A stretch of 29,315 nucleotides of DNA from positions 1 through 29,315 of the forward strand of contig JNDT01001394.1 of assembly GCA_000697055.1 (NCBI GenBank), read 5' to 3'. The translations under genes and the position numbers were made by a program. Position 1 is the first letter of the stretch. Each line of letters begins with the position of its first letter. Shown here piece after piece: positions 1,469-27,453 of the stretch. Below the pieces are notes generated by a model. That model was given only the letters and a program-made list of their open reading frames with translations, was not told the origin of the DNA and did not search any database. Source of the DNA: Saksenaea vasiformis B4078 (taxonomy: Eukaryota; Mucoromycota; Mucoromycetes; Mucorales; Saksenaeaceae).

Positions 1469-3769
1469 ATGGAAGTTGAAAATGTTCCACCCGACGAGAC
1501 TCTAGGGGACGAGCCTATGAATGAGGAGATGTGGTCTTCATGGGCTTTATTAATTTTGATGACTTTGCTGATTGGCGCCTTATGGACCAGTTATCATTTA
1601 CAGTTGCGGAAAATTCGTGCCATTCATGAAACGGTTATTTCCATTATGGCAGGTACTCAAAGGTTACCGGACTCTGCTCACTTTAGACTGACGTGGGAGA
1701 TTACTGACAGGAATGATTGTCGGATTGGCTATTAAGCTCGCACCTGGCACTATTATCCAACGTATGGTGCAATTTAACCAAGGATATTTCTTCAACCTCT
1801 TGCTCCCACCGATCATTCTTAACTCGGGATATGAGCTGAAACGCGTACGTACGTCGGAAGATATGTCTTCCGAACCATGACTCAACCTTGTTTTTTAATC
1901 ATCAGCGGCATTTCTTTCTCAATTTCGGCACGATTCTAACGTTTGCTATGGTGGGCACCTTTATTGCAGCCATTGTGACCGGGTAAATAAGAGAATATGA
2001 GTTTCTATAGCGTTAACTTATTTTGACGTCCTAGTGTCCTCACCTATCTCTGGGCTTTTTTCCATCCTGAAGGAATTTCTATTAGCTTCCTGGATAGCAT
2101 GATTTTCGGATCTATTTTGTCTGCCACAGACCCTGTGACTATCTTGGCTATCTTTGCGCAACTTAACGTCGATCCTCAGCTATTTTCGATCATTTCTGGT
2201 GAATCGTTACTCAATGATGCAGTGGCCATCGTGCTTTCGGAGTAAGTGCGCTTTGTTCATTTCGTCTTACACGACAATTTTTTTTATAAAAATTCCTCTT
2301 CCGATAGCACTCTACGGAAATTCCGAGGTCAGGAACTGCATGCTATCAATATCTTCAAAGGTATCGGTCTCTTTCTCGGCGTGTTCTGGGCGTCCACTTT
2401 TATCGGAATTCTGTTTGGAATCGTTGTTGCGCTCATGCTGAAGCATTCTCAGCTGCACCGTTACGCTAATATTGAAGCATGCCTCATTAGCTTGATGGCC
2501 TACAGCAGCTATTTATTTTCCAACGCTGCGCAGATGTCAGGTATGACAAGGGTCTGGTGAGGTTGCAATTTCTCAAGTCATGTCCTAGGCATTGTGACGT
2601 TGTTGTTTACGGGCATTACATTAAAACATTACGCATACGATAATATGTCATTACGAACGAAGCGTGCTACGAAGTACGTTTTCCAAATCTTATCGCAATT
2701 GTCGGAGAACTTTATTTTCATCTATCTTGGTGTGAACTTGTTCACGCAAACGGATCTGGACTACAAGCCACTATTTATCTTGGTAACAACGGTAAGTTGC
2801 TGTAGTAATTAAAAAAGGCGACCTTTCATTCGTAATCACACGTAGGTCGTTATCTGTGTTGCACGTTACGTATCTGTTGCTCCTTTGTCGATATTAATCA
2901 ATGCGGGTTGTCGTGCTCTTGGGAAACCGGAGCAACTTCCTCAATCACATCAATTGATGTTATTTTGGGCAGGACTTCGCGGTGCTGTGGCTTTTGCTTT
3001 GGCATCTGGTTTAGCTGGAGATAGTGGGCCAGCGATGCGTACGACAATTCTTGCGGTGGTGGTGCTTACGGTGCTGATTTTTGGAGGGACGACCAATCGC
3101 ATGCTTCAGGTGCTCGAGATCAAGACGGGTGTTCAGGAACCAGATGATTCGTGTAGTGAAGAGGAGGAGGAAGATCCTCACCCAAGACGTCAGTTGCATT
3201 TACGCCGTAATCGTAACGGATCTAGTGAACATCTGTTACATATAAGTGACGACGATGAGAATGATCACAACGAAGAGTCGCAGGCACAAACTTCACGGTA
3301 TCAAAACGATTACACGGATGTCTCTATTGGGGGACTCTTATCGGGACCTTTGGGCGATCCCATTCCTGATCCGGGACCGCCTCACTGGTTTATGTCGTTT
3401 GACGAAAAATGGTTGAAACCTATCTTCACCAAACGCCATATCCAGCAACGAAACCAAACGTTGGCTGAATATTGGAGAGAAAAGCGGCGAAAAATGGACA
3501 GAGCCAATAGAAACATGCTGGCTGGTATCCGAAGCATGGGACTTGGTGCATCTAGCTCTATAGATGATTACGGTGATCAAGACATAGACGCTGTCACGCT
3601 AAGCACAGTCCACCCCAGTGGAGACATGAGTACAAGTCCTTCGAGTTTCCCACGAACAACATTTGGTAACTTTGGACACGGAGATTCCGGACCGACTACA
3701 CCAGGTAAACTTGTGGTGGGTTCTGGCAGGGTATTTGGAAGGTCTCCAACGACGCCTCCGGATAAATAA
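1469..3769 (+). CDS. NHX1: Endosomal/vacuolar Na+(K+)/H+ exchanger, NHX1/NHE type
   Basis: Seven exons join in frame (1469-1652, 1711-1844, 1906-1982, 2035-2241, 2308-2540, 2589-2791, 2846-3769) to give 653 residues, close to the roughly 630 of yeast Nhx1. All six introns are 48-66 nt GT-AG. The protein is a multi-pass CPA1 antiporter: a first membrane helix at about 22-41, the motif SATDPVT around Asp164, the hallmark [12 protein letters not shown] at 187-198 with the ion-binding Asn-Asp pair at 192-193, and GLRGAVAF at 389-396 with the conserved Arg391. The cytosolic tail has an acidic SEEEEED run and a Ser/Pro/Gly-rich end. By family knowledge it exchanges luminal H+ for cytosolic Na+ or K+ in late endosomes and affects vesicle traffic. 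An in-frame ATG at 1373 would add 32 residues; I prefer 1469 because the acidic start before helix 1 resembles fungal relatives. The gene converges with the next one, 106 bp away. Confidence 0.95.
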
Positions 3770-9045: not shown

Positions 9046-10212
9046 TTAAAGCCACCAGGATTCCTTCTCTTGACTATGGACGAACATGTCGGTATCATCG
9101 TCTTCATCATGCTCTTGATAAACATGTCCAAACGGATCAAAGTCGATATCCATGGCTCTTTCCTCTTCTTCGACCATATCTGACCAAGAAGTACCGGTGG
9201 CTCCACTAAATACGGCTGAATCGAAGCTCACCTTGTTTGTCTTTTGGGGTACGGCGACAGGAATATCCACAGGCGACATGGGCTCTTCTTCATCCGACAA
9301 CTCATCATCTGAGTCGTCTAGTACCAGGCGGTCGATTGCAAGGAATTCTTGCTTCATCTCTGCTACTGTAGGTCGGTCGGCAGCATGAACAGATAAAGTC
9401 TTTATGAGAAACCGAAGGCAGGTATTACTTAGCATAGGGAACAGTTGTTGCTTGAGCATCATTGGATTGCGTTTGAATTCAGCGTAGGCCATGTCCATGG
9501 AGGTGGCTTCTTGCCATGGGTTACGTCCAAACATCAAGGCGAGGAGCAGGATACCCAAACTCCAGGTATCTGAAGCGGCGGCATCATAAGGTACCATGAT
9601 AGTTTGGTCATCATCAAAATGTTCCGGAGCTAAATACGTGGTTGATCCACATCCAAATTCCAATGAATAACGCTCACGCGTGGCCAAGCCAAAATCAGCG
9701 ACCTTGCACACAAACTCATCATCATTGTCTTCGTCATCATATTTCAGAAGAATATTTTCCAGCTTGATATCTCGATGATAGATGTTTTGGGCGTGCATGA
9801 ACTCGACGCCTTCTAGGATTTGGAGAAACACGGTTTTGACCAGTCGTTCGTCGCGCATGGCTGATGGATCACGGATCACAAAGTCAAATAGGTCACCTTG
9901 ATCGCAGAGTTCCATCACCATGAAAATGAATTTTTCGTCTTGGATAACACGATGGAGACCAAGAAGGTAAGGGTGCTTAAGAGAAGATTGAATGTCGATT
10001 TCGAGTTGTTGCAGCTGAAGCTGCTGATGATCAAGACCAGACTTGCTGAGGATCTTGATAGCCACGTAGGTGTTGTCAATTAATGACTGACCCAGAAAGA
10101 GGCAGCCATAGGAACCCCGTCCTAGCTCCTCGAGAAGCTGGTAGTCACCGTCGATGATCTTGTCAACCATAGACGCAGATATTTGGGTCCAGTAATCTTC
10201 TTGTGTAACCAT
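9046..10212 (-). CDS. Serine/threonine protein kinase, Ran1/Sks1/Vhs1-like
   Basis: A single uninterrupted exon of 388 residues. The kinase domain spans about 24-293: glycine loop GRGSYG at 31-36, catalytic Lys53 in AIK, helix-C Glu71, catalytic loop HRDIKLEN with Asp148 and Asn153, DFG at 173-175, APE at 195-197, and a DTWSLG helix-F motif. The tail is acidic, contains SWSDMVEEEE followed by a DFDPFG segment, and ends in SWWL. This resembles the fungal Ran1 (S. pombe meiotic inhibitor) and Sks1/Vhs1 (glucose and cell-cycle signalling) group, which I infer from domain pattern and tail rather than from a search. The lack of introns contrasts with the other kinase in this window, which has twelve exons. 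The start is the ATG at 10210-10212, after an A/C-rich leader. Confidence 0.9.
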   Translation of the reverse strand: MVTQEDYWTQISASMVDKIIDGDYQLLEELGRGSYGCLFLGQSLIDNTYVAIKILSKSGLDHQQLQLQQLEIDIQSSLKHPYLLGLHRVIQDEKFIFMVMELCDQGDLFDFVIRDPSAMRDERLVKTVFLQILEGVEFMHAQNIYHRDIKLENILLKYDDEDNDDEFVCKVADFGLATRERYSLEFGCGSTTYLAPEHFDDDQTIMVPYDAAASDTWSLGILLLALMFGRNPWQEATSMDMAYAEFKRNPMMLKQQLFPMLSNTCLRFLIKTLSVHAADRPTVAEMKQEFLAIDRLVLDDSDDELSDEEEPMSPVDIPVAVPQKTNKVSFDSAVFSGATGTSWSDMVEEEERAMDIDFDPFGHVYQEHDEDDDTDMFVHSQEKESWWL

Positions 10213-10760
10213 TCTGGGTTGCTTGAGTTTCCTTCTTTGTCGGTTGTTGGGCTTGTGAGAGTATTTTAGAATAATTAACAGGTGGAAGAGCGCTTTTTTT
10301 TGTTATAACGGGATTTTTTCTTCTTTTGTCTTTCGTTAGTTTAAGTTCGTCGAACGCCAAAGGGCAAAGTCGAGAGAGAGTTGAAACAAAGAATTACGGA
10401 CATGGTACAATGGAGGACACAAGTGAGAGAATAAAAAGAAGCAAAAGCCGAAACAAGCCTTCTTTTCTTTTGTAGCAGTGGAGCAGTTTTGTTGGTCGGT
10501 CAAGGTGGAGGTGTTTTGTTTGCAGTGCGCTTTTTTTTGGAACTTCAATGAATCAACCCAGTTGCAATCATCTTGAAGAGAAAGTGTAAAAATGGTAATG
10601 TACAATAGTAAACAAGAAAAAGGTTAATAAAATAGAATTTTTTGGGGTTTTAAGAAGAGTGTCCGAAAACACACCACTAAAAGAATAAAAAGCAAGGAGT
10701 GAAGTATAAAGTGTGAAAGAGCGAAAGAAACATGAAAATGAAGGAGGAAATCAAAGTATA
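10213..10760 (-). promoter_or_regulatory. Probable 5' leader and promoter of the Ran1-like kinase
   Basis: Read on the minus strand, this stretch is rich in A and pyrimidine runs, including several T8/A8 tracts and an AC-rich segment just before the kinase ATG, which is typical of fungal leaders. I see no canonical TATA box that I would place with confidence. An open frame running through 10163-10360 begins at TTG, not ATG, so I do not treat it as an upstream ORF. Confidence 0.35.
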
Positions 10761-16221: not shown

Positions 16222-17888
16222 TTATGCAGAGGACACCCCTGTTGGAAATGGGTTTGCTTTACTTAATACTAAGAACTGCTTCTCATGCGAAAGATAACCC
16301 TTTATATAGCCCTATATATTATTTATTAGACATTGTGACTTTTTGGCATAACCTTACCTTGTAGATCATGTTTGCCAGGTACCACTCTACTTCTTCGGGA
16401 TCGATGTTGAGCCCAACGAATTCCAATGCTCTTCCAAACATAGGAATTGGTATCCGGGTATTGCGGTCCAAAAGAATGAATCTGAAAAATAAAAATTAGA
16501 TAACTCGCTGCCACTATATTTTTAGGACACTTACACTTTCCGGAATAGCTGCCTTATAACAATACTCTGTGCTTTTTCTACTGCAAAATAGGTACCCTCG
16601 CGGATCAGGATGGATTCTGATGCTACCAACGCCTCATTAAAAGCTTTGACATCCCCTCGTCTAAGAGCTGCTGCCAGAGCGCCATATGTATGCTGGGCTT
16701 TTGGGAACCTTTCCAACAATGCATCCGACGGAAGAACACCCCGCATCAAGCGAATAGGCAAGAGTGTCTGTAGAATGAGTCTTTCCAAAATGTTAGCACC
16801 GCGGTCCTCCGCCTTACATATTGCTTCCTACTCTTTGTTTTTGCGGTGAGAATTGGCACATTCTCTGAATGCGAGACTTAATTCATGCTCGGCCTTGAAA
16901 TGGATCAGTTGAGATCAGACACGACTCACTCTGAGATGACCCACCTTGACATAATCCTCTTCCAAAAAATGTAGCCTTCCAAGATAGTACCAAAACGTAA
17001 CGCGATCACTTTTCGGAAATTCATCGATAGACGGCATATCTGCTGCCCCCAGAGCACGCAAGATATTCTTGCAAAGATTTTGTTGTTTCAACTACGAAGT
17101 TAAAAATAGTGGGGAATAATTGCTTTAGCAAGACACAACTTGTACGCTTATCCTTACCTTAAAATAGATTCTGAATAGTATACCAATCATAGCATACGTT
17201 CCGTATTTCCTTGATGTGCTCATCACACCTCTACGCTCGATGTCAGACATGAACTACGAGATCCATCTGTGTACACTACCTGTCCGTAATACAGTAGGTA
17301 AATGACTTGCTAATTACATTTGCTGCTTCCTCTAATTTTTTTCGCTGACCTTCAGTAGCTGATTCATCATCTGCCTAGCTACGTGTTATTCAATACTTCT
17401 GGTGACAGAACTAAGGCTTACCTTTGAAGCGACAACACGTAAATCATTGTTAATAACGTATAGGATGGGTAAACACCACCGTGTAAAGGATGACATGGCT
17501 CTCTGAAATGCCCTATCGACCTAGGTGAGATCACCCATTTCTCTGAGTCGCACTATGCTTACTGCACTACTTCTTTCTGTGCTTCAAAAGCTTCCAAGTA
17601 CTGGCCTTGATCCATAAATACCGCCGCTTTCAGATGACCCGCGGCGATATCATCCCATGGTGAATCGAGACGATTCCGGCATGCATTGTCGATCTTACTC
17701 AACTATACATATTCTATCGGTGAGTACGAACGAATACAAAGCACAATGGGATGCAGTACAACGAGATTTTGTTCGAGCAAGCTAGACACATGGTAATCGT
17801 TCAGCGAGAGTAAGTTTGCCAGGTTTTTCCCATTCTCGTTGTTGCTGTATGTTCCGAGTTTTGACAGATATAATTGAAGAGCTTTCAT
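16222..17888 (-). CDS. PCI-domain protein of the PCID2/Thp1 (CSN12-like) family, TREX-2 complex
   Basis: I assembled ten exons on the minus strand: 17888-17763, 17702-17563, 17512-17422, 17374-17280, 17230-17158, 17091-16945, 16893-16832, 16780-16535, 16481-16358, 16311-16222. All phases agree and give 397 residues, against 399 for human PCID2. Family landmarks appear in order: SPWDDIAAGHLKAA, LPILYVINNDLRVVA, YGTYAMIGILFRIYFK, FWYYLGRLHFLEEDY, LLPIRLMRGVLPS, then the winged-helix end NTRIPIPMFGRALEF and GYIKGYLSHEKQFLVLSK. By family knowledge PCID2/Thp1 sits with Sac3 and Sem1 in TREX-2 and couples transcription to mRNA export; the related CSN12 is the main alternative. The first exon end is uncertain: 17742 is an alternative donor that adds seven residues. 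An in-frame stop lies upstream of the chosen ATG. Confidence 0.92.
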
Positions 17889-18020
17889 CGATGTATGCTA
17901 TTTCTACCGCGTTTTGGGTCTTGAAGGCGTATGAGCAGCGATGCGTGACTGGTACACTGCACCGACACCGACCCGCTCAAAAACACCGCCTACTTGTCGT
18001 GGCTTTCATCCATCAACGTC
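17889..18020. promoter_or_regulatory. Putative bidirectional promoter between PCID2-like gene and CLP1
   Basis: The two start codons face away from each other across only 132 bp. Both 5' leaders and both promoters must fit in this space or overlap the genes. I see no TATA box. The arrangement suggests shared control of two nuclear mRNA-processing genes, which is inference from spacing only. Confidence 0.6.
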
Positions 18021-19865
18021 ATGCAGGAAAAAGTAAGGCGCTCTCGAGTTTATCAACATCATCTTAAGATAACGTGATTAACAGGAAGAATTACTGCCTG
18101 TGCGAGAGCTTGAACTTGATCCTGACCATGAATTTCGCTTTGAAGTGGAATTCAGTGTCAAGGTACAGATCAAGGTAATGTATCCGATCTCTATAACGTG
18201 TGGCGGAGCGAACACTTGAATAAATCGTATTATCTCTTCCCTACTGGGTCTTTCTTTGAGGATAATGACACTGACTACTTTTTTTCTTGTACTATTTTAC
18301 TCCATGATTTTTGTCTTTGTTGCCATTTGATATTATGCGCATAGCTCCTAAAAGGAACTGCAGAAATATTTGGCACAGAGCTAGCCACTGGCGTTGATTA
18401 TACATTTAGCGGTCGTAAGGCGGCCGTATACACGTGGCATGGTTGCACATTGCAAATATCCTTTTTATATTATATACAGGTTGACAAAGGTGTGGTAACT
18501 GATATGACCACACAGGCAATGAGCAAGATTTTCCTTTTTCTTCCTTAACTATGATCGTACGTCAGAGGAGAGTTTTTAGTAGAGTATACAGCGAACGAGA
18601 CACCAATGACGAGTTATCTCAATACACATTTTGCACTTCAACAACGGAGAGAATCTGCGGAAGAATTAAAGGATCAGGGTCCACGGGTGAGTTAGACGTT
18701 TGGGTACGCAGTTGCCTAACATGTCGTTATCAAAGGTACTGGTCGTCGGACCACACGACGTAGGGAAGACATCACTGTGTAAATTACTTGTCAGCTACGC
18801 CTTGCGACAAGGTGAGAAACCACTGTATGTGTCATTAGACACGTCTGAGGTAAGCCTGGGTGTGGATCTGGAAAGATCCTGAGAATAGTATGATAGGGAT
18901 CCATTACGATGCCAGGGACCGTGACAGCGACAGCAATTAGCCACATCATCGATATTGAGGAAGGTTTTGGCTCTTCAGCAACTACAGCTGCTTCAATGGG
19001 TTCAACCACAATGCCATTAGCGTATTATTATGGATACGAAAATCCAGCAGAAAATGTTAAGCTTTACAAGCTCGTCGTATCACGTCTAGCCCATGCGGTA
19101 AAATGCCGATTAGCAGTTGACGAGGAGAGTCGCAGAGCAGGCTATATCATTGACACATCTGGGCTGATCGATCATGTGGGCTATGACCTGATACAGCATG
19201 CAATTGAAGAATTTTCAGGTAAAATAACCCTCCTTGAGCGCCGACTCATAAGAAATTAAATGTCATTTCCAGTGAATGTGGTTATTGTTCTGGGTCATGA
19301 ACGCCTGTATAGTGACATGACAAAAATTTTGAAGGGACGAGAATCAATCTCTGTTGTGAAACTTGCAAAGTCCGGAGGTGTAGTCGAACGCGATCGCCAA
19401 TTTAAACTTCAGCTGCAGCGCAGTAAAATTCAAGAATACTTTTACGGCACTCCCAAATGCGAGCTCTCCCCTTACTCTATGCTAGTCAACTTTAGCGATA
19501 TAAATGTCTGGAGAGTAGGTGAAACGACAGCACCATCATCAGCTCTACCTATTGGCATGGATAACACAGCAAGCGAGACACAAGTCGTCAAAGTGGAAAG
19601 CTTCGATATGTGTCTGCACTCTGTAATGGCTATCTTAAATGCAGATAATTTGGAGCACGAGAATAAGCTTCTTGAGTGCAATGTTACTGGATTTATTTAT
19701 GTGTAAGTTGTCGAGATAGTTTCTATATTGAGTTAATATGTTTTCTATGATTACAGGTCGGACGTGGATGAAGACAAGAAGAAAATAACCATCCTGTCTC
19801 CCGCACCTGGTCGACTCCCCCGCCGTCATTTGCTAATGGGTTCATTCAAATGGATGGAAGCGTAA
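18021..19865 (+). CDS. CLP1: mRNA cleavage and polyadenylation factor / polynucleotide kinase family protein CLP1
   Basis: Eight exons (18021-18032, 18085-18174, 18345-18455, 18561-18686, 18736-18849, 18897-19218, 19273-19702, 19757-19865) join in frame to give 437 residues; human CLP1 has 425. The order is an N-terminal beta domain with AEIFGTEL and TWHGCTLQ, a central P-loop GPHDVGKT at 118-125, a Walker B-like SLDTSE with Asp148, the motifs MPGT and EEGFG, the lid region KSGGVVER to EYFYG, and a C-terminal domain ending ILSPAPGRLPRRHLLMG. Clp1 is part of CF IA with Pcf11 in yeast; animal CLP1 is also an RNA 5'-hydroxyl kinase. The first coding exon is only four codons. The third intron (18456-18560) is AT-AC and looks U12-type, whereas the rest are GT-AG. 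After the lid's VVER the segment has fewer Arg than human CLP1, so kinase activity is doubtful. Confidence 0.95.
18456..18560 (+). other. U12-type AT-AC intron in CLP1
   Basis: The intron starts ATATCCTTT, matching the U12 5' splice-site consensus (A/G)TATCCTT, has TTCCTTAAC at 18541-18549, matching the U12 branch-site consensus, and ends in AC twelve bases after the branch A. There is no polypyrimidine-AG end at this point. Removing exactly these 105 bases joins TWHGCTLQ to VRGEFLVEYTANETPM. The spacing from HGC to the ETPM motif is then 15 residues, the same as in human CLP1. The best GT-AG alternative inserts five extra unconserved residues. Confidence 0.88.
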
Positions 19866-23483: not shown

Positions 23484-24421
23484 CGTATTGTTATACTGTA
23501 TAAAGCTTTAGATTTTGCGTGTAAATAAATGTAAATATACCAACTGCCCAAAAGGCAACACAAGGCGAAGCGTTTTCTGAAATACAAGAATATATGTCAC
23601 ATCTGATGGTCGCATCCGCTAGAGAAAAGAGCTACCACGCGGATAGTGTGCTTTTTTGAGAGATGTGTCTAGCAATGTGACAAGAAGGAAAGCTACATGC
23701 TTTCATCAATCGACATGACAGCTTATCTACGCGTAACAATACCATGTTGCTATCTCTGTTCGTGATTCATGATGCACAGTTTAGAAAGGTATGAAGTACA
23801 CAGTAATTTATAGATGAAGAAAGCGACGTACAGTAGGACACTACCACATCGAAAAGCAAACTGGGGTCGAGCGGTTTATGCTTAACCATTATCTTACTCT
23901 TCCATGATGCAATTCGTTGTCGACAAAATACCTGCGGATCTTAGATAATTCAGTGTGTAACTTTGAAGACCAGCTAAAGGCTCGCAGAAGGTTGTCTGAG
24001 CATGAATTCAGGAAGACTAAGCGCGATACGCAATGCTTTCAATGAACGTAATATTCACGACAGCAAACATCGATCGTCAGCACTACATCTTGGTGAAATG
24101 CAAAAGTGACGTGTCGAGGCGCCTCCCAAAGGATGAATCTGACAAACGGTAGTGGGAAGACGCTTTAAGGATCTTTCTGCCATAATTAGTATGCCAAGTA
24201 CGGTATGTTTGCTGTCTTCTCAGCGGAAATTGGTCCTTCCAGAGATGAAAAGTAGGGTCAAGGATGTTTCAATGAATGGTACACAATAAACAATGGTCAC
24301 TTGTGTTCCTGGAGTTCCATTCGGGATATTGCCTTTTTGAAATTGTAGATTCAGCTCCCGCCAATGGTTGGAAAAGCCAATAAGATTTGCCCACAATTTC
24401 ATTACTCTTTTTCCACTGACA
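23484..24421. other. Intergenic between MPS1 and the nucleotide-sugar transporter
   Basis: AATAAA at 23524-23529, about 40 nt past the MPS1 stop, is a likely poly-A signal. The rest shows no coding signal on either strand. A 60-codon minus frame at 24220-24402 overlaps the transporter start in antisense and is probably chance. The right part must hold the transporter promoter. Confidence 0.5.
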
Positions 24422-25535
24422 ATGCTTCGGTTCGCGCTTTGCGTTGCAGGTATCTATGCCTGCTTTCTCACATGGGGCGTCGTACAGGAGCGAGTGAGCA
24501 CTACACCATACGGAGATGAACAGGCACCAAAGAAATTTCGGTTTTTCGTTGTCCTGAACCTCATCCAGTCACTCATTGCAGCTGCCGTTGCTTTCATCTA
24601 CATGAAGATCAGTGGCAAATCGTTAAATATCAATGTTGCTCCGCGAGGCCTGTATTTGAAATACGCGCAGGTCGCTTTTTTCAACTGCACTGGATCGCCA
24701 TTTGGGTATGCCTCTCTCAAGCACATAGATTACCCCACGATGATCTTGGGCAAATCCTGCAAACTCATGCCCGTTATGTTCATGAATGTCTTGGTGTATC
24801 GCCGTCGCTTTCCATTGCATAAGTATATGTGCGTTGGACTGATTACAGCTGGTGTATCCATGTTTATGCTTTATCATCAATCCGAACCTAAAAAGAGCGC
24901 AGCCACGTCCAATTCCTTGTGGGGCTTGTTCCTGCTATGTATGAATCTTGCTATTGATGGCCTCACCAATGCTACGCAAGATCAGATCTTCCATGCCTAC
25001 CCGCAGTACGTTAGTGGACAGCATATGATGTTCTACATGAATGCCATCGGATCTTTGTTTTCTGCAAGTTATTTGGTGCTATATCCTTACAACAATGAGC
25101 TCTGGAAAGCCCTGGATTTCTTTTACGCTCACCCTGCAGTAATCCGCGATGTGCTTCTTTTCGGTTTCTGCGGAGCAGTCGGTCAATGCTTTATATTTTA
25201 TACGCTCCAACATTACGGAAGCTTGCGTTTGGTTACGGTCACGGTGACGCGCAAGTTATTTACAATGCTCCTTAGCGTGTTCTGGTTCGATCATGAATTG
25301 TCTTTGGGTCAATGGGCTGGTGTTGCACTTGTTTTCTCAGGTAAATAAGATTTTTGAACCGGTAATAACGAACTAACGTTGATACCGGTATATAGCCATT
25401 GGTATAGAGGCGTACATCAAGAAGCAGCAAACAGTTCGGTTGAAGAAAGCATTTGAACATTCGAAAAACGAAAACAATCGTCTAGGTCCGAAAGAAGGGT
25501 TAACTGCCGTCGTGAAATCTGTCAAAAGTGCATAG
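24422..25535 (+). CDS. HUT1: ER nucleotide-sugar (UDP-galactose-type) transporter, HUT1/SLC35B1 family
   Basis: Two exons (24422-25340 and 25396-25535, 55-nt GT-AG intron) give 352 residues, the usual length of Hut1. The protein is a multi-pass membrane protein of the drug/metabolite transporter fold. Family landmarks are LTWGVVQERVSTTPYG after the first helix, NCTGSPFGYASLKHIDYPT, the KSCKLMPVM motif, LAIDGLTNATQDQIF, and near the end HYGSLRLVTVTVTRK followed by FTMLLSVFWFDHELSLGQW. SLC35B1/Hut1 proteins act in the ER; UDP-galactose was the first proposed substrate in yeasts, and mammalian SLC35B1 has been reported to exchange ATP and ADP, so the substrate here is open. An in-frame ATG at 24368 would add 18 residues; 24422 matches the family start better. 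The C-terminal tail is charged and has no KKXX signal. Confidence 0.93.
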
Positions 25536-25835: not shown

Positions 25836-27453
25836 ATGGCAGCACGATCAAATCATTCGCCATTACAACGGTATTTGGCGTCACAATATGTTGATTTTGA
25901 TCTGGAAAATCCAACTGAACGGCTTCAATCGCTCTATTCGGACTTTTCAAAACTGAAATTGTTGAACCCTTACGGCTTTGAACATAATGTCGGTTATTGG
26001 CGCACGGTCATCCTCGATAGCAATGCACATGGATATCTTGGATCAGCTGAGCATTACCTTGCTATTGATACTAGCGATATAGCAGAAAAGTTTGAAAGAG
26101 TGGGAATAGGAAAACCGTTATCGATCGATTGTGTGTTGGTAAGTTCATACTTCTTAAGCATCTTACTATTACCTACTGAAAGAAAAACACAAACGCCTGT
26201 TAGACGTTTATGAATACCAAAGGCGATATTATGCCGATGGACAAATTCATACAGACATATACACCGACTAACTGGCTATCATGGATGTACGAGGCTGCAG
26301 TAAAACCGGTGCGTTTTTCGTGGCAGGCCGTTGCTCCTCCCAAGCAGCCAAGCCTGTTTGTGGTTCTGTCGACAGTTAAAAAGATTGCAGATCATATTTT
26401 TAAGAGTTACTATCGGAAACCATTGAAAAGCGCTGCAGACAACGTTTATACCTTTGCTGATTTTCGAGCAATCCACGGAACATATCACGGCATGGAGATG
26501 ACCAATGCAGATCTATGGCTTATCCTGAATTACATGAGTTCCCAAATGGGTTTGGCGATTATTGACAATGTTCGAGGATATGGAAAAACCTACGCGGTAC
26601 GTCGCTGCATAGCATGATTTTGCTATGATTCTGAACAAGTCAATATCGATATGCAGGTGATCAAAATGCCTGAGAAGCATGACACCAAGATGGTACCAGC
26701 TCAAATCACCGAGCATGATAAAGCAATCATTAGTCTGAAGACCACCTGTCAAGCACTACACCATCAAGCGGATGAGTTACAAGCAAAAGTCGAAGAGTGG
26801 GGATAATAACGTAATCCTGACGATGTTGACTGGGAACCCATAGGTTTGCACACATGTCAAAAGAGAATAACATAAAGAACCGCAAGGCTCAAGCATTATA
26901 CGCGCTGAAGAAGAAGAAACAATTAGAAGAGATCTTAGATCGGCGATTGCGGTCTCTAGAGACAATGGAGACAATGCTGATGAAAATTGAAGCTTCTCAG
27001 AATGATCTACAGGTATCTACATATGTACGCAGACAGAAACAACTGAACAGTGGTTACTTTTTTTTCGTAAAGGTTATTCAAGCGTTCAACGTCGGTGCAG
27101 ACGCGTTGCGAGGTATCCTGAAGAGTAGCGATCTTTCAGTCGTGTCGGTGGACGAAACAATGCAAAGAATGCAAAACGCGTTAGAAGACCAGAAAGAAGT
27201 TGAAGATGCTATATCTATGGGTACAGAAGAAACGTTGCAACTGTATAGCGCTGGAGACCAAGATGAGCTGGAAGAGGAGCTCAAAGCAATGGAAACACCA
27301 CAACAACAGAAACCGTTGGAACTCCCTCCCCCAATCGACACAGAATCCGAATTGGCGCGTCTGGATCAAGTTCTGGCATCGTTAAAACGAAGCAGCTTAC
27401 CTCCGTTAGACGAACGACCACGCCAACGGGTACGCGAAAGCGAACCAACCTAA
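25836..27453 (+). CDS. CHMP7: ESCRT-III-related protein CHMP7 (Chm7-like)
   Basis: Five exons (25836-26138, 26204-26596, 26657-26796, 26844-27012, 27073-27453) join in frame to give 461 residues; human CHMP7 has 453. Residues 1-230 form the ESCRT-II-like winged-helix half, with GYWRTVI and YYRKPLKSAADNVYTFADF. Residues from about 245 to 420 form the Snf7 domain: NRKAQALYALKKKKQLEEIL, the LMKIEASQNDLQ helix, and VIQAFNVGADALRGIL. DELEEELKAM and LARLDQVLASLK follow as a MIM-like tail. By family knowledge it binds LEM-domain proteins at the nuclear envelope, recruits ESCRT-III to seal holes and supports nuclear pore quality control. The acceptor before exon 2 (TTAG at 26203) is inferred from frame. 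The gene converges with the small protein, 77 bp away. Confidence 0.93.

Follow-up and report, generated by a model that had tools for sequence, protein, structure and literature searches.

A predicted U12-type AT-AC intron in the CLP1 gene of Saksenaea vasiformis B4078

The window considered here, a stretch of 29,315 nucleotides from contig JNDT01001394.1 of Saksenaea vasiformis B4078, carries on its forward strand a gene for CLP1, a core factor of mRNA 3′-end formation, which can be assembled from eight exons (Table 1). Exon ends were placed by eye, relying on GT-AG sites and on likeness to CLP1, and the joined exons give a stop-free product of 437 amino acids; apart from the AT-AC intron that is the subject of this work, the remaining six introns are of the GT-AG type. 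Pfam recognizes in this product CLP1_N (residues 14-104), CLP1_P (118-317) and Clp1 (323-436), in this order and all above cut-off, the first of them spanning the junction between residues 71 and 72 where the AT-AC intron is removed. Residues 5-436 align with PDB chain 8hmy_E (polyribonucleotide 5′-hydroxyl-kinase Clp1, presumably the human protein) at E 1.7e-104, the junction being ungapped. Among the homologs listed, the nearest CLP1 belongs to Apophysomyces sp. BC1034 (89% over 437 aa), followed by Radiomyces (82%) and other Mucorales, and the early-diverging lineage assumed for the host from the letters of the DNA agrees well with these relatives. Within residues 117-160 (18736-18905) the P-loop GPHDVGKT is kept, while LDTSEG replaces LDVGQG of 8hmy_E; LDTSEG or LDTTEG is found in all five other CLP1 proteins of Mucorales compared. 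Because of this replacement the predicted RNA 5′-kinase activity of the S. vasiformis protein may be changed.

The minus strand at 16300-17976 contains a possible gene in pieces (for instance, 16534-16827), positioned head-to-head with CLP1 and resembling what we take to be PCID2/Thp1, a subunit of the TREX-2 mRNA export complex, so that two genes of mRNA processing may share one promoter. Four of the ten other reading frames of the window that were sent to Pfam gave matches (Table 1).

Table 1. Features of the CLP1 locus and Pfam-matched frames elsewhere in the window
Feature	Position	Strand	Basis and remarks
CLP1 exon 1, predicted start codon	18021-18032	+	Gene model
CLP1 exon 2	18085-18174	+	Gene model
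CLP1 exon 3, upstream of the AT-AC intron	18345-18455	+	Gene model, 8hmy_E alignment
Predicted U12-type AT-AC intron of CLP1	18456-18560	+	105 nt, phase 0, residues 71/72; letters and best of 6793 open models
5′ splice site ATATCCTTTTT	18456-18466	+	Window letters; CCUUUUU pairable with the 5′ end of host U11, AAAAAGGG
Branch site TTCCTTAAC	18541-18549	+	Window letters; contains in-frame TAA 18546-18548; A18548 bulged in the predicted U12 duplex
3′ splice site AC	18559-18560	+	Window letters; end of the intron tail ...GATCGTAC
CLP1 exon 4, downstream of the AT-AC intron	18561-18686	+	Gene model, 8hmy_E alignment
CLP1 exon 5, P-loop GPHDVGKT	18736-18849	+	Gene model
CLP1 exon 6	18897-19218	+	Gene model
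CLP1 exon 7	19273-19702	+	Gene model
CLP1 exon 8, stop codon	19757-19865	+	Gene model
Rival GT-AG boundary, donor GTTGAC, acceptor TTTTTAG	18480-18584	+	Gap-free, poorer score
Na/H exchanger part	2846-3766	+	Pfam
Protein kinase	9049-10302	-	Pfam
UAA transporter family	24341-25345	+	Pfam
Snf7	26830-27450	+	Pfam

Introns of the U12 type are characterized by the 5′ site consensus RTATCCTT, the branch site consensus TTCCTTRAC, a short distance from the branch adenosine to the 3′ site and an AC or AG end. All these features are present in the 105 nt between exons 3 and 4, where the branch adenosine, A18548, lies 12 nt from the AC end, and the letters of the 5′ site, branch site and terminus are exactly those described in the sequence-only reading. 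Scanning both strands of the window with [AG]TATCCTT-N20..150-TCCTT[AG]AC returned a single motif pair, that of the CLP1 intron.

Similar pairs are abundant in the genome. The pattern TATCCTTT-N20..80-TCCTTRAC has 51 matches in contrast to 2 for the reversed pattern, by which a chance origin was dismissed, while an earlier pattern, TATCCTT-N20..80-TTCCTTAAC, gave 11 matches against 4 in the control. The base preceding TATCC, which lies outside the pattern, is A in 33 pairs, G in 13, T in 3 and C in 2, and since this excess of A/G over T/C (p = 2e-9) was not demanded by the search, most of the 51 pairs are not products of chance; the five preceded by T or C are probably background. An AC dinucleotide 9-16 nt past the branch adenosine accompanies 27 of the 33 AT-type pairs and AG accompanies 8, while the GT-type pairs form a mixed, less clean subset (AG in 7/13, AC in 6/13). 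Joined frames, for which the intron end giving the longest frame was taken, could be written for 35 of the 46 A/G-type loci, CLP1 included, and their phases (14 in phase 1, 12 in phase 2, 9 in phase 0) follow the order 1 > 2 > 0 that excerpts of PMC10639083 report for minor introns. From these 35 candidates 10 were chosen for their conserved look and sent to Pfam; nine matched at E 0.01 or better, eight of them above cut-off, and one had no match. In six of the eight the matched stretch crosses the junction (TatD, Alg6_Alg8, Glyco_transf_22, PP2C, Brr6_like and MIOS), the IPK match starts just past it and the Ion_trans match stops before it; a TBC match crosses the junction below cut-off. The pattern is narrow and biases the ratio of AT to GT types, and the true number of U12-type introns in this genome may well exceed its count.

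Several of the loci (L011-L021, L023-L043 and L077-L095 in our numbering, 33 of 51 being of the AT type) deserve separate mention. Two alike genes, L019 with the weak TBC match and L080, carry the motif pair at the same codon, and so do the PP2C-like genes L092 (by Pfam match) and L085 (by likeness); such coincidence of position suggests that these introns are older than the respective gene duplications. The ion-channel-like gene L083 holds one motif pair.

Minor spliceosome RNAs U11, U12, U4atac and U6atac, which had been named beforehand as something to be sought, were searched for in the whole genome (38,675,218 bases in 666 contigs) using Rfam models with Rfam cut-offs. U11 scored 76.5 bits against a cut-off of 39, the model being matched from its first to its last position, and U6atac scored 66 bits against 33 over the full model length; seven further U6atac matches, each below 23 bits, are of a kind that bacterial controls also give. 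A candidate U12, likewise of full model length, reached 43.3 bits, below the cut-off of 53; it holds GUAAGGA and the Sm-like AAUUUUUUG, and its low score fits the atrophied third U12 stem described for basal fungi in excerpts of PMC4133162. The host U6atac contains AAAGGAGAGAA, and in the duplex predicted between the U12 candidate and the branch site A18548 is the single bulge. Pairing energy by itself is not distinctive for U11, since 638 of 3000 random 18-mers of the window pair equally well with it; that of U6atac is matched by 33 of 3000 random 18-mers and that of U12 by 89 of 3000 random 14-mers.

As for U4atac, the Rfam model gave no match in the whole genome at E 1, and a 17-base pattern with 2 mismatches allowed gave 64 matches, compared with 47 for the pattern reversed. 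A single one of the 64 was exact, and it is the complementary strand of the U6atac gene. Among the 30 of these 64 that were inspected, six loci besides that of U6atac have a downstream Sm-like string and were dismissed by eye. A two-part pattern derived from the host U6atac yielded 2 matches against 1 in the control, neither with an Sm-like site within 120 bases. U4atac is therefore to be called not found in this genome rather than absent.

Minor-specific proteins, also named beforehand as something to be sought, left traces of their own. One exon matches PF18036, which we take to be the U11/U12-25K domain, above cut-off, the match covering positions 50-87 of the 89 in the profile; in the PDB it has two matches, both weak (1v2y at E 0.055 and U11/U12-25K of 8r7n at E 0.15). 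An ORF resembling PDCD7 scored 16.5 bits, below the cut-off of 27, and its only PDB match, weak as well, is PDCD7 of 8r7n (E 0.041). No member of the CENATAC/CCDC84 and SCNM1 families was found in the genome by searches that gave no match in any control either and that consequently say little about their absence. On this basis the genome appears to encode parts of the minor spliceosome. Tail to tail with the 25K-like exon lies an ORF (L022:323-1360, plus strand) that presumably corresponds to the spliceosomal zinc-finger protein ZNF830/CCDC16.

The position of the boundaries was evaluated by scoring 6793 models, each with one intron of 20 nt or more that starts at 18375 or later and ends at 18675 or earlier and whose removal keeps the frame in register and open, against a profile of 28 homologs picked as junction-intact, the named ones including no Mucoromycota and three being unnamed. 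The AT-AC model ranks first among all 6793 models of any boundary with 623.2 bits. Sliding the 105-nt gap by 1-6 bases changes the score by no more than 0.4 bit and deprives it of the usual terminal dinucleotides; because protein similarity is nearly indifferent to such slides, the exact base of the intron ends is set by the splice-site motifs. Three AT-AG ends further downstream, 17, 19 and 22 nt past the branch, would cause a frameshift, and a fourth, at 24 nt, preserves the reading frame at the cost of VRGE. Retention as the normal form of CLP1 is rejected by the in-frame stop. GT-AG (51 open models) and GC-AG (46 open models) joins all fall at least 10 bits below the AT-AC model.

The best of the former, at 18480-18584 with 613.1 bits, has to be considered as an ordinary U2-type intron cut by the major spliceosome, the U12-like motifs then being coincidental. 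It is open, gap-free and of the same 105-nt length, and its TTTTTAG acceptor preceded by CTTAAC would be acceptable by the consensus of major fungal introns. The assertion that only the AT-AC boundary restores a gap-free match to the CLP1 family was for this reason too strong. Nevertheless the GT-AG model is 10.1 bits worse, and over residues 72-79 its reading ISFLYYIQ loses to VRGEFLVE of the AT-AC model in 91 of 93 homologs (those of the 120 listed that are ungapped there), most of which have V/I-K/R-G-x-F-L-V-E or similar, with mean BLOSUM62 scores of 0.7 and 17.6, respectively. Its donor GTTGAC differs from those of the six GT-AG introns in the gene model, and the motif pair occurs genome-wide far above chance, all of which makes this alternative highly improbable. 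AT-AC introns of the U2 type, spliced by the major spliceosome, are known in human cells (excerpts of PMC8280824), but ATATCCTTTTT and TTCCTTAAC are U12 forms and the genome encodes matching snRNAs, leaving this option a negligible chance. The U12-type AT-AC class is thus backed by the motifs, by the best gene model, by genes for minor snRNAs, by exons of minor-specific proteins and by similar motif pairs elsewhere, and as judged from sequence 18456-18560 is almost certainly a real intron of this class and a predicted substrate of the minor spliceosome.

Recognition by U11 and U12, exchange of U11 for U6atac and lariat excision make up the established pathway for minor introns. Applied to CLP1, this pathway would imply that U11 base-pairs to the CCUUUUU of the 5′ site and U12 to UUCCUUAAC, bulging A18548, after which U6atac would displace U11, the lariat would be excised at A18548 and the exons would be joined between codons 71 and 72, the other six introns being left to the major spliceosome. 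Should minor splicing fail, translation would end behind residue 101, within the first domain, CLP1_N, since the retained 105 nt stay open in frame up to the TAA that sits in the branch site itself. Because retention would give this truncated product of 101 aa, CLP1 protein may well depend on minor splicing, as had been supposed, and such a message would tie mRNA 3′-end formation to the minor spliceosome; the supply of CLP1 would then be expected to follow minor-splicing capacity. One might go further and propose a regulated intron, a part of the CLP1 message retaining it as a poison form and thereby restricting CLP1 whenever minor splicing is slow. The stop after 101 residues and the openness of the 105 nt up to the branch-site TAA are compatible with such a role, slow minor splicing is regarded as a possible control point (excerpts of the review PMC8329584), and in human cells A-type minor introns constitute a less efficient subclass aided by CENATAC (excerpts of PMC8280824). 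The same picture would be given by any stop-containing phase-0 intron, however, and we consider this regulatory role doubtful.

If the predicted intron is shared by relatives, gene finders restricted to GT-AG boundaries are expected to break their CLP1 models at the same codon. Position of the intron was compared through proteins rather than DNA in 120 listed of 752 CLP1 homologs found, groups being assigned from record names. Deletions of at least 3 residues peak at residues 68-71 (16 of 120 models against a median of 2 over residues 40-429); another maximum, 15 of 120 at residues 181-186, has the appearance of a length-variable loop. Insertions of at least 3 residues are commonest elsewhere (22 at residue 281 and 18 at 383), none occurring exactly at 71. 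Six of 120 models start at residue 87, the first Met past the junction; no other clustering of starts occurs past residue 15. Altogether, damage at the junction affects 13 of 15 models from Glomeromycotina, 4 of 27 from Mucorales, 1 of 16 from Mortierellomycotina, none of 22 from Ascomycota and 7 of 40 others, two of the latter being the chytrids Spizellomyces and Thoreauomyces; these counts include P0001 (Apophysomyces sp. BC1034), entered by hand as damaged, and P0060 (one of the others), a fragment starting just past the junction, leave out P0027 (Zychaea), odd at the junction, and come from related species that are not independent. Models damaged near residues 67-73 or starting at 87 include P0001, P0022, P0035, P0050, P0056, P0061, P0066, P0070, P0074, P0091, P0103 and P0110, among others.

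In eight of the 15 models from Glomeromycotina the missing residues are exactly 67-73, as would result from a false intron running from G|GT(TGC) to (AA)AG|G around an unseen AT-AC intron. In the CLP1 of Apophysomyces sp. BC1034 the string YNILSLTIPN stands in place of the expected VYTWHGCTLQ, and, with TTA as the codon for L, SLTIPN would correspond to the DNA string TCNTTAACNATHCCNAAY, fitting the branch site TCCTTAAC with 11 nt to the AC end; we infer that this odd string may encode a U12 branch site. Junction-intact models make up 23 of 27 in Mucorales, and intactness is uninformative on the presence of the intron. Damage may have other causes, such as poor annotation or lineage-specific introns: many of the broken Glomeromycotina models share the annotation style ‘_t:CDS:10’, several have further gaps, and the junction is undamaged in one model each from Rhizophagus and Acaulospora. 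Against this stand the height of the deletion peak at residues 68-71, the loss of precisely the same seven residues in more than half of the Glomeromycotina models and the undamaged Ascomycota, making such causes unlikely as the explanation. The damage in deposited fungal CLP1 proteins is likely to represent annotation mistakes made where a non-GT-AG intron went unseen, and breakage of relatives' models at the same codon suggests that the CLP1 AT-AC intron is old and routinely mis-annotated.

Only tentatively can these observations be united into a wider scenario, possible though not favored, in which the intron would be ancient, common to Mucorales and Glomeromycotina and perhaps to chytrids, and always AT-AC; mRNA 3′-end formation would be dependent on the minor spliceosome, with the branch-site stop as an off state, within a mostly AT-AC system without recognizable U4atac, and public CLP1 proteins would have been broken by gene finders blind to such boundaries. 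The footprint suggests in any case that gene finding confined to GT-AG damages public protein records, and it offers a cheap way of tracing introns of this kind.

The intron had been presented as a rarity among fungi, and this holds insofar as the minor spliceosome has apparently disappeared from most of them, but minor introns have already been reported in the early-diverging Rhizopus, Phycomyces, Rhizophagus and Basidiobolus (excerpts of PMC2846911 and PMC10639083). Excerpts of PMC2846911 list, by ESTs, one AT-AC U12-type intron in Rhizopus oryzae and 8-9 in Phycomyces blakesleeanus, Mucorales that share order and intron class with S. vasiformis; CLP1 is unnamed in these excerpts, whereas one narrow pattern reveals here 46 A/G-type loci, 33 of them of the AT type. 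The 205 minor introns of Rhizophagus irregularis and 249 of Basidiobolus meristosporus (excerpts of PMC10639083) likewise belong to early-diverging fungi, and Rhizophagus resembles S. vasiformis also in having minor snRNAs and proteins, with the difference that all four minor snRNAs are shown there and U4atac was not found here. The word CLP1 is absent from the main text of PMC10639083, and in the literature covered by titles and beginnings of abstracts CLP1 was not found as a minor-intron gene; it may stand in some published list of minor introns.

Two members of the same order, Apophysomyces (PMC5604411) and Lichtheimia corymbifera (PMC4133162), are similar to S. vasiformis in that U4atac was not found there either, judging from excerpts of both papers; the latter gives one U4atac copy in other basal fungi. 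The former describes U12 as well as U4atac as not present in Apophysomyces variabilis, unlike S. vasiformis with its below-cut-off U12 candidate and its U12-type introns, and this candidate together with dozens of motif pairs speaks against the reported lack of U12 in the genus with the most similar CLP1. Ascomycota and Basidiomycota appear to be devoid of the minor spliceosome, and well-defined cases from early-diverging fungi help to date its loss and to follow single introns. To the minor introns already published for fungi the CLP1 case adds one more, its interest lying in the host gene, in the U12 RNA candidate and in the sign of an old intron.
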